Origin: Sphingomonas sp. 28-63-12
Lineage (GTDB): Bacteria; Pseudomonadota; Alphaproteobacteria; Sphingomonadales; Sphingomonadaceae
Length of the DNA stretch: 64,000 nt
Assembly: GCA_002281535.1 (NCBI GenBank)
Contig: NCGD01000005.1
Location: 68,249 to 132,248 of the forward strand
Direction of reading: 5' to 3'
Below are positions 1,636 through 56,153 of the stretch, in pieces; within the stretch, counting starts at the first letter, position 1, and every line of letters begins with the position of its first letter. The position numbers were made by a program, and so were the translations under genes. Below the pieces are notes generated by a model that was not told the origin of the DNA, made no database searches, and saw only the letters and a list, made by a program, of their open reading frames with translations.

Positions 1636-1790
1636 CGATTGCTCGCTTGTCCTTGGGGGAGGGGATATCAGGGCCGTCTAGGATGAAGGCCCGCGCCAAT
1701 CAACCTCTCCAAGCCGCGTAACGCGCCGTGACCGTCGGCAATTGGTGCCGACGCATTGAATTGCTGCACTGCGCAAGGTACAACCCCACC

Positions 1791-2519
1791 ATGCCATTGC
1801 CAGAAAAGCCGCCGATCGGCGGCGCCAGCGTCACGTGGCGCTTTCCTGATGTGCACCCGGAAGGGCGCAAATATGTGCTGATTGCCGGTGCGGTCGCGCT
1901 GCTGTCGCTGTTTGTGTGGGATATCATGACCTGGCCGCTGATCGGCCTGACGATCTGGGTGGCGGCGTTTTTCCGCGACCCCGTGCGGGTGACGCCGCAG
2001 GGCGATGATCTGATCACAGCGCCGGCGGATGGCCTGATCACCATGATCGAGCGGATGCCGGTTCCCCCCGAACTCGCCGGCGACAATTGTCTGGGGACGG
2101 CGCCGCTGGTGCGGGTGTCGATTTTCATGAGCGTGTTCGACGTCCATATCAATCGCACACCGATTGCCGGCACGATCCGCCAGGTAATTTATATTTCAGG
2201 CAAATTCCTCAATGCCGATCTCGACAAGGCCAGCGAGGAAAATGAGCGTCAGCATATTCTGGTCGAAGGCCGAAACGGTCGCAAGATCGGCTTTACCCAG
2301 ATTGCCGGACTGGTCGCCCGGCGCATCGTGGGTTTCGTCAAGGCAGGCGACATGGTGGCATCTGGCCAGCGAATCGGTTTGATCCGCTTCGGCAGCCGGG
2401 TCGATGTCTATCTGCCCGACGATATCGCATGCCAGGTTGTGCTTGGTCAGCGCAGCGTGGCCGGCGAGACGATCATCGGCCGCGCGCATGCAACCACCCC
2501 GATCGGGATAGCGCAGTGA
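1791..2519 (+). CDS. psd: Phosphatidylserine decarboxylase (short bacterial type)
   Basis: Converts phosphatidylserine to phosphatidylethanolamine at the inner membrane. From the ATG at 1791 the protein has 242 residues; an upstream in-frame start would add 21 residues that do not look like the family. Hydrophobic stretches at about residues 24-60 are followed by the F-F-R-D-P sequence typical of short Psd proteins. The self-cleavage motif F-G-S-R-V-D-V places the serine that becomes the pyruvoyl group at about residue 202. The next gene, pssA, makes its substrate, so the two form a phosphatidylethanolamine operon. Confidence 0.95.
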
Positions 2520-2559: not shown

Positions 2560-3339
2560 ATGAGGCGGCCAACCCCGCGCCCGGTCCGTGGCCTCCCGCT
2601 GCGGGCGGTGGCACCCAATGCGGTGACCGCATTGGCGCTGTGTTCCGGCCTGACCGGCATCCGCTTTGCGATTGCGGCGGAGTGGCAGCTGGCGGTGACG
2701 ATGATCATGATCGCTGGGGTGCTGGACGGACTCGATGGCAGGATCGCCCGGATGGTCCGTGGCGAAAGCCGGTTTGGCGCCGAGCTCGATTCGCTTTCCG
2801 ACGCCATTTCCTTTGGTGTGTCGCCCGCGTTGATTCTGTATCTCTGGTCGCTCGAGGCGTTTCCGAAAATCGGTTGGCTCTGTGCGCTGGTCTTCGCGGT
2901 GTTCTGTGCGCTGCGTCTGGCGCGGTTCAACGCGGCGATCGATGTGGCCGACCAGCCGCACAAGCTGGCGGGATTCCTTACCGGCATCCCTGCACCCGCC
3001 GGCGCCGGCCTGGCGATGCTGCCACTTTATTTATGGTTCTGGACCGGTGAGGCTGTGTTTCGGTCACCCTGGCTGGTGGCGCCCTGGATCGCGATTGTCG
3101 CGGTCATGATGGTGTCGAGCATGGCGACCTATAGCTGGTCCTCGCTCAAACTACGCAGCTCGATCCGCTTCGAGGCGATCGCCGTTGTCGTGCTGCTCGG
3201 CGCGGCGCTGGTGTCTGCGCCTTGGCATACGCTGACATTTATTTGCATCGCCTATCTATTGTCGATGCCGTTCAGCATTCGGGGCTATGCCCGGATCAGG
3301 CGGCTGCGCGCAAAGCCTGCGGCCGTGCCGCTGCCATGA
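2560..3339 (+). CDS. pssA: CDP-diacylglycerol-serine O-phosphatidyltransferase
   Basis: Makes phosphatidylserine from CDP-diacylglycerol and serine in the inner membrane. The 259-residue protein has several membrane segments. The CDP-alcohol phosphotransferase signature D-x2-DG-x2-AR-x8-G-x3-D-x3-D is complete at residues 56-81. The ATG at 2560 is the first usable start after the psd stop at 2519. Its 3' end overlaps the convergent small gene at 3296-3508 by 44 bases. Confidence 0.95.
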   Translation: MRRPTPRPVRGLPLRAVAPNAVTALALCSGLTGIRFAIAAEWQLAVTMIMIAGVLDGLDGRIARMVRGESRFGAELDSLSDAISFGVSPALILYLWSLEAFPKIGWLCALVFAVFCALRLARFNAAIDVADQPHKLAGFLTGIPAPAGAGLAMLPLYLWFWTGEAVFRSPWLVAPWIAIVAVMMVSSMATYSWSSLKLRSSIRFEAIAVVVLLGAALVSAPWHTLTFICIAYLLSMPFSIRGYARIRRLRAKPAAVPLP

Positions 3340-3508
3340 CCGGCCGCCGCCACACCACCGGACGTGCCGATACGCTGCGGACCGCTGGTTGACTGGTCAC
3401 GAACAAGGCGACGATCCGGGGCATGGCGGGGACAAGCGTTGTCGCCATCACCGCAAATACGGTGACAAGGGCGATCGAGAATAGCGTCAGGCTCAACAGT
3501 ACCATCAT
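3296..3508 (-). CDS. Small membrane protein with an SOS-type promoter
   Basis: A 70-residue protein I cannot assign to a family. Residues 2 to about 35 are strongly hydrophobic (MMVLLSLTLFSIALVTVFAV at the start), consistent with one membrane segment; the rest is rich in Arg, Ala and Pro. The start is well supported: GGAGG lies at 3517-3521, eight bases before the ATG at 3508, and a second ATG follows directly. About 90 bases upstream, on the same strand, is a TTGACA box with GAAC-N7-GAAC inside the promoter. A membrane protein made under DNA damage would recall SidA, the SOS-induced division inhibitor of Caulobacter, but that role is inference. The gene is convergent with pssA and overlaps its last 44 bases. 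Confidence 0.65.
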   Translation of the reverse strand: MMVLLSLTLFSIALVTVFAVMATTLVPAMPRIVALFVTSQPAVRSVSARPVVWRRPVMAAARPQALRAAA

Positions 3509-3595
3509 TGTTCAATCCTCCGTATCCGTCCGAAATGTCCCGATCGCCCTGACGAGCAGCGATGACATTTGTTCCATGTACGCTCTACGAACCCT

Positions 3596-3624
3596 ATATG
3601 TTCCGTTCATGTTCCAACTGTCAA
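3596..3624 (-). promoter_or_regulatory. Promoter with a LexA (SOS) box
   Basis: Read on the minus strand, TTGACA at 3624-3619 is a perfect -35 box. GAAC-ATGAACG-GAAC lies at 3614-3600, matching the alphaproteobacterial LexA site GAAC-N7-GAAC. A weak TATA-like -10 falls around 3593-3601. A second half-site in opposite orientation makes GAAC-N7-GTTC across 3589-3603, read on the plus strand. A bound repressor would cover the spacer and block RNA polymerase. The promoter points at the small membrane protein starting at 3508. An effect on rpsB, which starts at 3761 on the other strand, cannot be excluded. Confidence 0.6.
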
Positions 3625-3760: not shown

Positions 3761-4636
3761 ATGGCGGCACCAGTCGTCACCATGCAGCAATTGCTCGAAA
3801 CAGGCGCGCATTTCGGCCACCAGACCCACCGCTGGAACCCGAAGATGAAGCCCTATATCTTTGGCGACCGCAACGGCGTCCACATCCTCGATCTGTCGCA
3901 GACCGTGCCGCTGTTCGCGCGCGCGCTCGAATTCGTCGCGGCATCGACTGCGTCGGGCGGGAAGGTGCTGTTCGTCGGCACCAAGCGCCAGGCACAGGAG
4001 CCTGTGGCCGACGCGGCGCGCCGTTCGGGCCAGCATTTCGTCAACCATCGCTGGCTGGGCGGCATGCTCACCAACTGGAAGACGATTTCGGGCTCGATCA
4101 AGCGGCTCAAGACGCTTGAAGAGCAGCTCTCGGGCGACACGACGGGACTTACCAAGAAGGAAGTCCTCCAGCTCACCCGTGAGAAGGACAAGCTTGACCT
4201 GTCGCTGGGCGGCATTCGCGACATGGGTGGCATTCCGGACGTGATGTTCGTGATCGACGCCAACAAGGAAGAACTGGCGATCAAGGAAGCCAACACGCTG
4301 GGTATTCCCGTCGTTGCGATCCTTGATTCGAATGTTTCGCCTGACGGGATCGCTTTCCCGGTTCCCGCGAATGACGACGCCAGCCGCGCGATCCGCCTGT
4401 ATTGTGAGGCGATTGCGATTGCCGCAACGCGTGGTGGCCAGCAGCAGCAGGCCGCCAGCGGTCGTGATCTGGGCGCAATGGATGAGCCCCCGGCTGAAGA
4501 AGCACTGGCAGCACCGGCCGTGGAAGTTGCAGCAGCGCCTGCTGCGACCGCACCAGCCGCCGCCGAGCCGGAAATGGTTGCTGCGGCATCCATGCCTGAA
4601 ACCGCCGTTGCAGGTGAGCAGCAGCTCGACGCCTAA
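3761..4636 (+). CDS. rpsB: 30S ribosomal protein S2
   Basis: Small-subunit ribosomal protein. The start at 3761 ([20 protein letters not shown]) matches the family and follows an AAGGA ribosome binding site; a longer reading frame upstream to 3674 adds unrelated sequence. Residues 1 to about 235 form the conserved S2 body, with H-F-G-H-Q near residue 16 and F-V-G-T-K near residue 70. The last 50 or so residues are a low-complexity tail rich in Ala, Pro and Glu, a common extension in alphaproteobacteria. The protein has 291 residues and is followed by tsf as usual. Confidence 0.97.
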
Positions 4637-54725: not shown

Positions 54726-54753
54726 GGAGGGGGGAAGGATTTTGTTCCCCTCC
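54726..54753 (+). terminator. Hairpin after the GST gene
   Basis: GGAGGGGGGAA at 54726-54736 pairs with TTCCCCTCC at 54745-54753, with one bulge. The loop is GGATTTTG. It separates the GST gene from radA. Confidence 0.5.
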
Positions 54754-54779
54754 CGTTCCCTTGCTGCTAACCGGTGCCA

Positions 54780-56153
54780 ATGGCCAAGCCCCAGAAACGT
54801 TATGTCTGCCAATCCTGCGGGTCCGTCTCGCATCGCTGGGCGGGACAATGCGCCGATTGCAGCGAATGGAACACGCTGGTTGAGGAGTCGACCGGACCGG
54901 TCACGCCCTTTGCCGCCAAGCATAATTTGCAAGGCGGCGGGCGGTCGCTCCGATTGGTTGGTCTCGACAGCGAGATTGCGTTGCCCGAGCGACTGCCGAC
55001 GGGCATTGCCGAACTCGATCGCGCATTGGGGGGCGGATTCGTCGAAGGCAGCGCAACGCTGATCGGCGGCGATCCCGGCATCGGCAAGTCGACGCTGCTG
55101 CTCCAGGCCGCTGCCAAACTGGCGCTGGCCGGGCATTCGGTGGCCTATGTCTCGGGCGAGGAAGCGGCGGATCAGGTGCGGTTGCGGGCGCGGCGGCTAG
55201 GGCTGGGGACGGCACCAGTGATGCTGGCGGCAGCGACATCGGTGCGCGATATCCTGACCACGCTGTCGCAAGCGACCCCACCGGCGCTGGTGGTGATCGA
55301 TTCGATCCAGACGATGCATTCTGACCTGATCGAGGGCGCGCCGGGTACGGTTAGCCAGGTCCGTGCCTCGGCGCAGGAATTGATCCGTTTTGCCAAGGAG
55401 CGCGGCACCGCTGTGGTATTGGTTGGTCATGTCACCAAGGACGGCAGCATCGCCGGCCCGCGTGTGCTCGAACATATGGTCGATACAGTGCTGAGCTTCG
55501 AAGGCGAGCGCAGTCACCAATACCGCATCCTGCGGGCGATCAAGAACCGCTTTGGCGGCACCGATGAGATTGGCGTGTTCGCGATGGTCGAGGAAGGGCT
55601 GGCCGAGGTGTCAAACCCTTCGGCGCTGTTCCTGACCCAGCGCGACGAAGGCGTGACCGGGACGGTGGTGTTTCCCGCGCTGGAGGGCACACGGCCGGTG
55701 CTGGTTGAGATCCAGGCACTTGTTGTCCGCCTCGCGAGCGGGGCAACGCCACGCCGCGCCGTGGTTGGCTGGGATTCGGGGCGGCTGGCGATGATCCTGG
55801 CCGTGCTGGAGGCGAGATGCGGGCTGAGTTTTTCGAGCTCGGAAGTCTATCTCAACATTGCCGGCGGCTATCGGGTGCAGGACCCGGCGGCCGACCTCGC
55901 GGTGGCCGCCGCGCTGATCTCCGCGCTGAGCGAGCGGCCGGTGGCGATCGATTCGGTCGCGTTCGGCGAAGTCGCGCTGTCGGGGGAGATCAGGCCGGTC
56001 GCGCATGGCGCGTTGCGGCTTAAGGAAGCGGGCAAATTGGGGTTTGAGCGCGCGCTGGTGCCGGCGGCGCTCGTCGGCGAAAAGCAGCCGCTCAAACTGT
56101 CGGGTTTCAAGAACCTTGGCAGTTTCGTTGACCATATGCTCGGGCGTGGCTAG
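54780..56153 (+). CDS. radA: DNA repair protein RadA
   Basis: Helicase-like ATPase that drives branch migration in recombination. From the ATG at 54780 it has 457 residues; a GTG at 54774 would add two. A zinc motif C-x2-C-x10-C-x2-C is at residues 10-27, Walker A G-D-P-G-I-G-K-S-T near residue 98, the K-N-R-F-G motif near residue 257, and a Lon-type C-domain. cvpA follows 51 bases later. Confidence 0.95.
   Translation: MAKPQKRYVCQSCGSVSHRWAGQCADCSEWNTLVEESTGPVTPFAAKHNLQGGGRSLRLVGLDSEIALPERLPTGIAELDRALGGGFVEGSATLIGGDPGIGKSTLLLQAAAKLALAGHSVAYVSGEEAADQVRLRARRLGLGTAPVMLAAATSVRDILTTLSQATPPALVVIDSIQTMHSDLIEGAPGTVSQVRASAQELIRFAKERGTAVVLVGHVTKDGSIAGPRVLEHMVDTVLSFEGERSHQYRILRAIKNRFGGTDEIGVFAMVEEGLAEVSNPSALFLTQRDEGVTGTVVFPALEGTRPVLVEIQALVVRLASGATPRRAVVGWDSGRLAMILAVLEARCGLSFSSSEVYLNIAGGYRVQDPAADLAVAAALISALSERPVAIDSVAFGEVALSGEIRPVAHGALRLKEAGKLGFERALVPAALVGEKQPLKLSGFKNLGSFVDHMLGRG

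Follow-up and report, generated by a model that had tools for sequence, protein, structure and literature searches.

A short open reading frame (ORF) between pssA and rpsB of Sphingomonas sp. 28-63-12 is a gene under purifying selection. Judged from its promoter, its control by LexA is near certain, and its product is probably an SOS-induced cell-division inhibitor of the sphingomonads, which would act like SidA of Caulobacter crescentus and is apparently unrelated to it. The gene lies in a stretch of 64,000 nucleotides of contig NCGD01000005.1, which is called the window here. A sequence-only reading of this DNA had called attention to a 70-residue frame, a GGAGG site, a TTGACA hexamer, a GAAC-N7-GAAC box and an extra GAAC half-site, all of which are present in the window (Table 1).

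Table 1 Features of the locus in the window (window positions; +, forward strand; -, reverse strand)
Feature	Position	Strand	Remark
psd	1728-2519	+	neighbour in the window
pssA	2560-3339	+	downstream of psd
Small membrane-protein ORF, 70 aa (70 codons)	3296..3508	-	between pssA and rpsB
Antisense overlap of the 3' ends of the small ORF and pssA, 44 nt	3296..3339		
GGAGG ribosome-binding site	3517..3521	-	8 nt before the ATG of the small ORF
Extra GAAC half-site	3571..3574	-	downstream of the operator; from sequence
-10-like region (ACATAT / CATATA)	3595..3601	-	17-18 nt from the -35 element
Predicted LexA operator GAACATGAACGGAAC (GAAC-N7-GAAC)	3600..3614	-	in the promoter spacer; from motif and conservation
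-35 element TTGACA	3619..3624	-	TTGAC in 72/73 picked genus loci
rpsB	ATG at 3761	+	beyond the small ORF

Taken alone, a single match to GAAC-N7-GAAC is not significant. The window holds two such matches against 1.36 expected, and at least two occurred in 43 of 100 shuffled sequences. Genome-wide there are 66 matches as compared to 63 for the reversed pattern, and most of the matches in the genome are probably due to chance. What raises the box at this locus far above chance is its conservation at the same spot across relatives. With 66 sites on the two strands of 3.48 Mb and a search length of 250 bp, about 0.002 exact boxes are expected per locus, whereas the locus carries an exact box in 75 of the 76 testable genomes of the genus and, outside it, in 27 of the 29 genera sampled from the rest of the family. 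The reading that a chance motif happens to precede a chance ORF agrees with the count of a single box being no higher than expectation, but it is contradicted by the family-wide conservation and by the purifying selection on the frame, and its probability is negligible.

The survey of the genus was anchored on rpsB, which was matched in 79 of 81 genomes. Upstream stretches were examined for 77 of these, two matched stretches that were cut at contig ends being left out, and one more (L041), which ends 126 nt upstream of rpsB, falls outside the testable set of 76. All 76 testable genomes possess an ORF of 70-82 amino acids with a single transmembrane segment behind a TTGAC-N4-6-GAAC-N7-GAAC arrangement, with a box that is exact in 75 and has one mismatch in the remaining one; L040 carries a one-mismatch box behind TTGAC and has the ORF. 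In 73 of the 76 stretches, the distance from rpsB to an exact box upstream of it is at most 420 nt. At L061 and in G069 (L113) a different gene adjoins rpsB, and the ORF and its exact TTGAC-box promoter are intact beyond that gene. The 76 ORFs consist of 73 that were picked automatically, L040 among them, together with those of L075, L061 and G069. The picked ORFs start with ATG (70) or GTG (3), and all 73 have a Shine-Dalgarno-like motif before the start, a count to be read with the fact that starts were chosen partly on this motif. The sequence-only reading had suggested such a comparison across relatives and had named a non-conserved box and a frame with random stops as grounds for its refutation. 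Neither applies, since relatives retain both the box and the open frame.

The promoter elements around the box are equally regular. A TTGACN hexamer stands 3-5 nt before the box at 72 of the 73 picked genus loci, and at 58 of these 72 the box is followed immediately by ATA; by these sequence elements, the predicted operator occupies the spacer between the -35 and -10 regions. At least two full boxes are found at the promoter of 24 of the 73 loci, and GGAAC sites resembling the extra half-site of the window are visible at the loci of many relatives. Where multiple boxes occur, they are mostly 23-25 or 29-30 nt apart (L064, L067, L072, L082, L103 and others). A set of 80 named loci, among the matches listed, gave a similar picture, although it shares species with the genomes of the rpsB survey and is not independent of it: 78 are of the Sphingomonas type and 77 of these have the promoter, the single locus without it starting 5 nt from a contig end. 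The remaining two of the 80 come from betaproteobacterial records and match by chance. The 78 loci include one record from an uncultured bacterium and one titled Arthrobacter. The latter (L191, Arthrobacter sp. TPD3018) has a Sphingomonas-type locus, and the record is probably mislabelled.

The selection on the frame is evident from a pN/pS of 0.11 outside the last 22 codons, obtained with 42 close same-length pairs that share sequences and are therefore non-independent; in the same pairs and region, differences at codon positions 1, 2 and 3 number 88, 38 and 483. The possibility that the ORF is an antisense shadow of pssA is ruled out by this ratio, which concerns codons outside the overlap, and by the existence of members without overlap. 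The window protein has no match among the Pfam and NCBIfam models. A search with 56 family members gave weak and inconsistent hits (best E 0.0007) to four NCBIfam models and three Pfam models, each to a single member. The gene is therefore likely to have been missed or labelled hypothetical. The small membrane protein that had been proposed from the DNA alone, in a place where annotation often overlooks such genes, is hence strongly supported as real and conserved, and easily missed indeed.

Beyond the genus, one genome was surveyed for each of 29 other genera of Sphingomonadaceae; the 30 genera examined, own genus included, are those with the best rpsB matches among the 59 searched. In 27 of the 29, an exact box lies upstream of rpsB on the strand of the ORF and is followed by a small transmembrane ORF, although the candidate of L288 is atypically short. 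TTGAC precedes the box at 25 of these 27 loci (not at L268 and L282). The other two genera have a one-mismatch box behind TTGAC with the ORF, beside rpsB at L281 and beside pssA, away from rpsB, at L439 (the genome of L270), so that all 29 have box and small transmembrane ORF if one mismatch is allowed. The most divergent of these ORFs (e.g. L285, L289, L293, L295) were assigned by position, box and helix and not by sequence similarity. A direct profile search of 196 genomes of the order matched only 34, since the sequences of the family change rapidly and no more than 29 candidates were scored for each genome, and at least three of the matches look false (L155, L156 and L443, the second match in G260). 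With this low yield and these false matches, rpsB synteny is the better basis for a survey. A box was present upstream on the coding strand at 26 of the first 29 profile-search loci, and also at three further loci.

Outside the family, no box was found upstream of rpsB in 22 genomes of the order that belong to other families (the stretch covered 1450 nt in 18 of them and 52 to 775 nt in four). Among 28 genomes of other alphaproteobacterial families, three of them with shorter stretches, there was one box near rpsB, without a transmembrane ORF passing the filter, and one further box more than 1 kb from rpsB. Since no boxed ORF was found near rpsB in these 50 genomes of other families, the arrangement is a trait of the Sphingomonadaceae and not a property of the rpsB region. 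This is relevant to the question which gene the box serves. At 73 genus loci the box starts upstream of rpsB, 148-339 nt from its ATG, and it could in principle adjust ribosome synthesis after damage by acting on rpsB, the ORF being incidental. However, the TTGAC and ATA elements flank the box on the strand of the ORF, rpsB of other families has no box, and the box goes with the ORF at loci where the ORF does not adjoin rpsB. This is the case at L061 and in G069, as well as at loci with no rpsB within 1.5 kb, where box and ORF are found together: L141, L143 and L154 in one genus, L145 and L153 in another, and L133 in Sphingomonas. On these grounds rpsB is rejected as the main client of the box, and such a role is very improbable.

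The same box occurs at established SOS genes. A single gene in the genome of strain 28-63-12 matches the LexA DNA-binding family, and a box starts 31 nt before the lexA ATG; a recA box is present upstream at 20 of 23 genus loci, the others being two contig ends (L171, L173) and one locus without it (L159). The check at known SOS genes that had been suggested along with the SOS promoter thus came out in its favour, and together with the conserved operator at the promoter it lends strong support to regulation by LexA. The motif also agrees with the alphaproteobacterial LexA motif, described in the literature as GTTC-N7-GTTC (PMC12700426; PMC7987155). Reading 33 box contexts of the genome by eye led to recognition of an imuA-like (L354) and a uvrD-like (L364) gene, which speaks further for LexA as the regulator; no SOS gene was recognised in the remaining contexts, which fit chance. 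The box at the imuA-like ORF starts 19 nt before it (by eye; G000:C46 near 5243, L354), and the mutagenesis cassette probably also belongs to the regulon. A further GAAC-N7-GAAC of the window (54744-54758, reverse strand) precedes a radA-like ORF (54774-56153), whose ATG at 54780 is some 20 nt away. In Sphingopyxis granuli TFA, itself a sphingomonad, induction of lexA, recA, radA, dinG and imuAB-dnaE2 together under anoxia is described (PMC6472365), and since radA rises there with lexA and recA, the radA-like gene of sphingomonads may be a LexA gene. The small ORF is not among the induced SOS genes in the available text of that paper, Table 1 included.

The protein encoded in the window consists of an N-terminal membrane helix, an arginine-rich tail and a C-terminus reading LRAAA. 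AlphaFold gives one helix, covering residues 2-38, with block-mean pLDDT values above 90 for the first 30 residues and below 60 for the last 30. ORF length varies from 70 to 82 amino acids within Sphingomonas and reaches about 110 elsewhere. An alignment of 56 members shows A70 to be invariant and F10, P27, R49, R53, R67 and A69 to be near-invariant. Residues 1-8 have no net charge in 68 of the 73 genus proteins and a net charge of -1 in five, and the tail has one of +4 to +10. By these charges and the positive-inside rule, the tail is predicted to be cytoplasmic, i.e. an N-out/C-in topology. The tails are also nearly free of lysine, with 642 arginines as compared to 15 lysines in the 73 proteins.

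The C-terminus is -AA or -VA in all 73 genus proteins, in all 78 named Sphingomonas-type loci among the matches listed and in 24 of 26 proteins from other genera (exceptions L285, ending NLA, and L289, ending FAV), whereas such an end occurs in only 4 of the 44 long ORFs in the window. As the antisense end of pssA also constrains most of these C-termini, the evidence for a degron is weaker than the raw counts suggest. Among nine members that are not overlapped by a long opposite ORF, eight from three genera keep the -AA or -VA end (L040, L105, L141, L143, L144, L145, L153, L154) and one (L285) does not. ClpXP is described as recognising the ssrA tag mainly by its terminal Ala-Ala (PMC7652416), and in Caulobacter two C-terminal alanines are reported to be a common ClpXP degron, as in the case of CdnL (PMC11034885). 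The tmRNA tag of strain 28-63-12 itself is ANDNEALAIAA, ending in -IAA. From these similarities, the C-terminus of the small protein may be regarded as a putative built-in degradation tag.

SOS-induced small membrane proteins that block division are described for Caulobacter (PMC4211646), Bacillus subtilis (PMC13396833) and Staphylococcus aureus (PMC6851548). The LexA-type promoter and single membrane helix of such inhibitors are both found in the sphingomonad family, and a functional counterpart of SidA appears to be the most economical reading, with division as a target suggested by the class of protein only. LexA bound to the operator between the -35 and -10 elements would keep the gene off. 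Upon DNA damage, activated RecA would trigger self-cleavage of LexA, and the gene would be switched on. The product would insert in the inner membrane by its N-terminal helix, with the N-terminus outside and the arginine-rich tail in the cytoplasm as predicted, and helix and tail may then block a late division protein of the FtsW, FtsI or FtsN type, by analogy with SidA, YneA and SosA, so that septation waits for repair. After recovery of LexA, a cytoplasmic protease, most likely ClpXP, would remove the protein via its Ala-Ala or Val-Ala end and division could resume. More tentatively, the Sphingomonadaceae may possess an SOS division checkpoint protein of their own, which would stand in for a dnaE-linked SidA-type gene and be fast-evolving, N-out/C-in and equipped with a degron resembling the tmRNA tag, making the arrest self-limiting.

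TisB of Escherichia coli is a short peptide that is held in check by an antisense RNA. If the sphingomonad protein were an SOS-induced membrane-active toxin of the TisB or DinQ kind, it would depolarise the membrane and bring about dormancy without blocking the divisome, and LexA control and one membrane helix are indeed reported to be common to these two proteins (PMC3567139, PMC8145889). However, DinQ is likewise described as a short peptide under antisense RNA, and neither peptide is known to have a long conserved tail, while tail and C-terminus are conserved in the sphingomonad protein, Pro27 and several arginines are near-invariant, and the gene, located on the chromosome, has largely kept its neighbourhood throughout the family. 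A role as a toxin of this kind is quite improbable. It is also unlikely that the protein, induced in the SOS response and inserted in the membrane, acts on something other than division, with its arginine-rich tail binding nucleic acid, an anionic lipid or an envelope enzyme. It could, for example, anchor the chromosome when this is damaged, or it could modulate the synthesis of phospholipids, for which psd and pssA as neighbours might be taken as an indication. The strong bias of the tail (642 Arg, 15 Lys) and the fact that most of the loci compared adjoin pssA are in line with this, but neither pssA nor psd is present in the stretches of L141, L143, L144, L145, L153 and L154, and because such members exist, the lipid genes are not needed nearby.

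SidA is described as an SOS- and LexA-controlled small inner-membrane protein (PMC4211646, PMC12700426) with the locus tag CCNA_02004 (PMC11034885). The sphingomonad protein resembles it in being a small membrane protein with a LexA-type promoter and the same type of operator, whereas SidA is reported to have 29 amino acids and the sphingomonad protein, with 70-82 in the genus, has a long arginine-rich tail and the -AA or -VA end. DidA of C. crescentus (CCNA03212) is closer in size, being described as a division inhibitor of 71 amino acids with one predicted transmembrane helix and short cytoplasmic and periplasmic parts, but it is reported to be independent of the SOS response and driven by DriD, whereas the sphingomonad family stands under LexA boxes. 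An SOS promoter and a membrane location are shared with the SOS-induced division inhibitors YneA of B. subtilis and SosA of S. aureus (PMC13396833; PMC6851548). YneA is described as bitopic and quickly degraded (PMC13396833), with an extracellular C-terminal LysM domain and cleavage by membrane-bound proteases; the sphingomonad tail, in contrast, is predicted to be cytoplasmic and ends in the Ala-Ala type, and no known domain such as LysM was detected by Pfam in the window protein or consistently in the 56 members. With TisB and DinQ the family has LexA control and the single membrane helix in common, as far as these are described, and it differs from such antisense-RNA-controlled toxins by its conserved tail.

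An alphaproteobacterial SOS division inhibitor is established for Caulobacter with SidA, and the sphingomonad gene offers one candidate that recurs consistently and has a promoter ready for assay. Its existence suggests that division checkpoints are re-invented per lineage while the LexA switch stays, and predicts a checkpoint that is reset by C-terminal degradation, as compared to membrane-bound proteases in B. subtilis. Among the matches listed for the open literature, as distinct from subscription papers, preprints and supplements, there was no paper on the small ORF or on a sphingomonad SOS division inhibitor, and the available text of a paper on the Caulobacter SOS response does not mention sphingomonads by that name (PMC13384398).

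The gene by pssA and rpsB can further be set against SidA-type candidates upstream of dnaE. The search for SidA-type genes covered up to 9 kb of DNA before rpsB and, after that, the region upstream of dnaE. The sidA gene itself presumably neighbours dnaE in Caulobacter. Among 21 class-level dnaE loci, small transmembrane ORFs with an SOS box directly precede dnaE in four alphaproteobacterial families besides the Sphingomonadaceae; they encode 33-47 amino acids with a W-[SG]-x-[IV] motif (G352, 35 aa; G368, 38 aa; G315, 33 aa; G321, 47 aa with a GTG start, by eye; loci L389, L379/L438, L416 and L406). Three further class-level dnaE loci have a box and no recognised ORF (L404, L417, L437). No SidA-type gene was found at 13 dnaE loci from other families of the order. 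Within the Sphingomonadaceae, 16 dnaE stretches showed no SidA-type gene and no nearby upstream box; two of them contain a box at a distance of more than 1 kb. The dnaE-linked ORFs resemble the SidA type, and the sphingomonad family seems to represent an independent solution. That the latter is unrelated to SidA apparently fits, as the dnaE-linked candidates, which served for this comparison in place of Caulobacter SidA, differ from it in size, location and motif.

The dnaE-linked small ORFs are themselves candidates for a wider SidA-type family. The dnaE product of the Sphingomonadaceae (e.g. G000:C3:48514-49026) is unusually divergent, being only 36-43% identical to an N-terminal query of alphaproteobacterial DnaE1, as compared to 44-58% for other families of the order and class with the same query, and it is possible that dnaE was replaced in the ancestor of the family.
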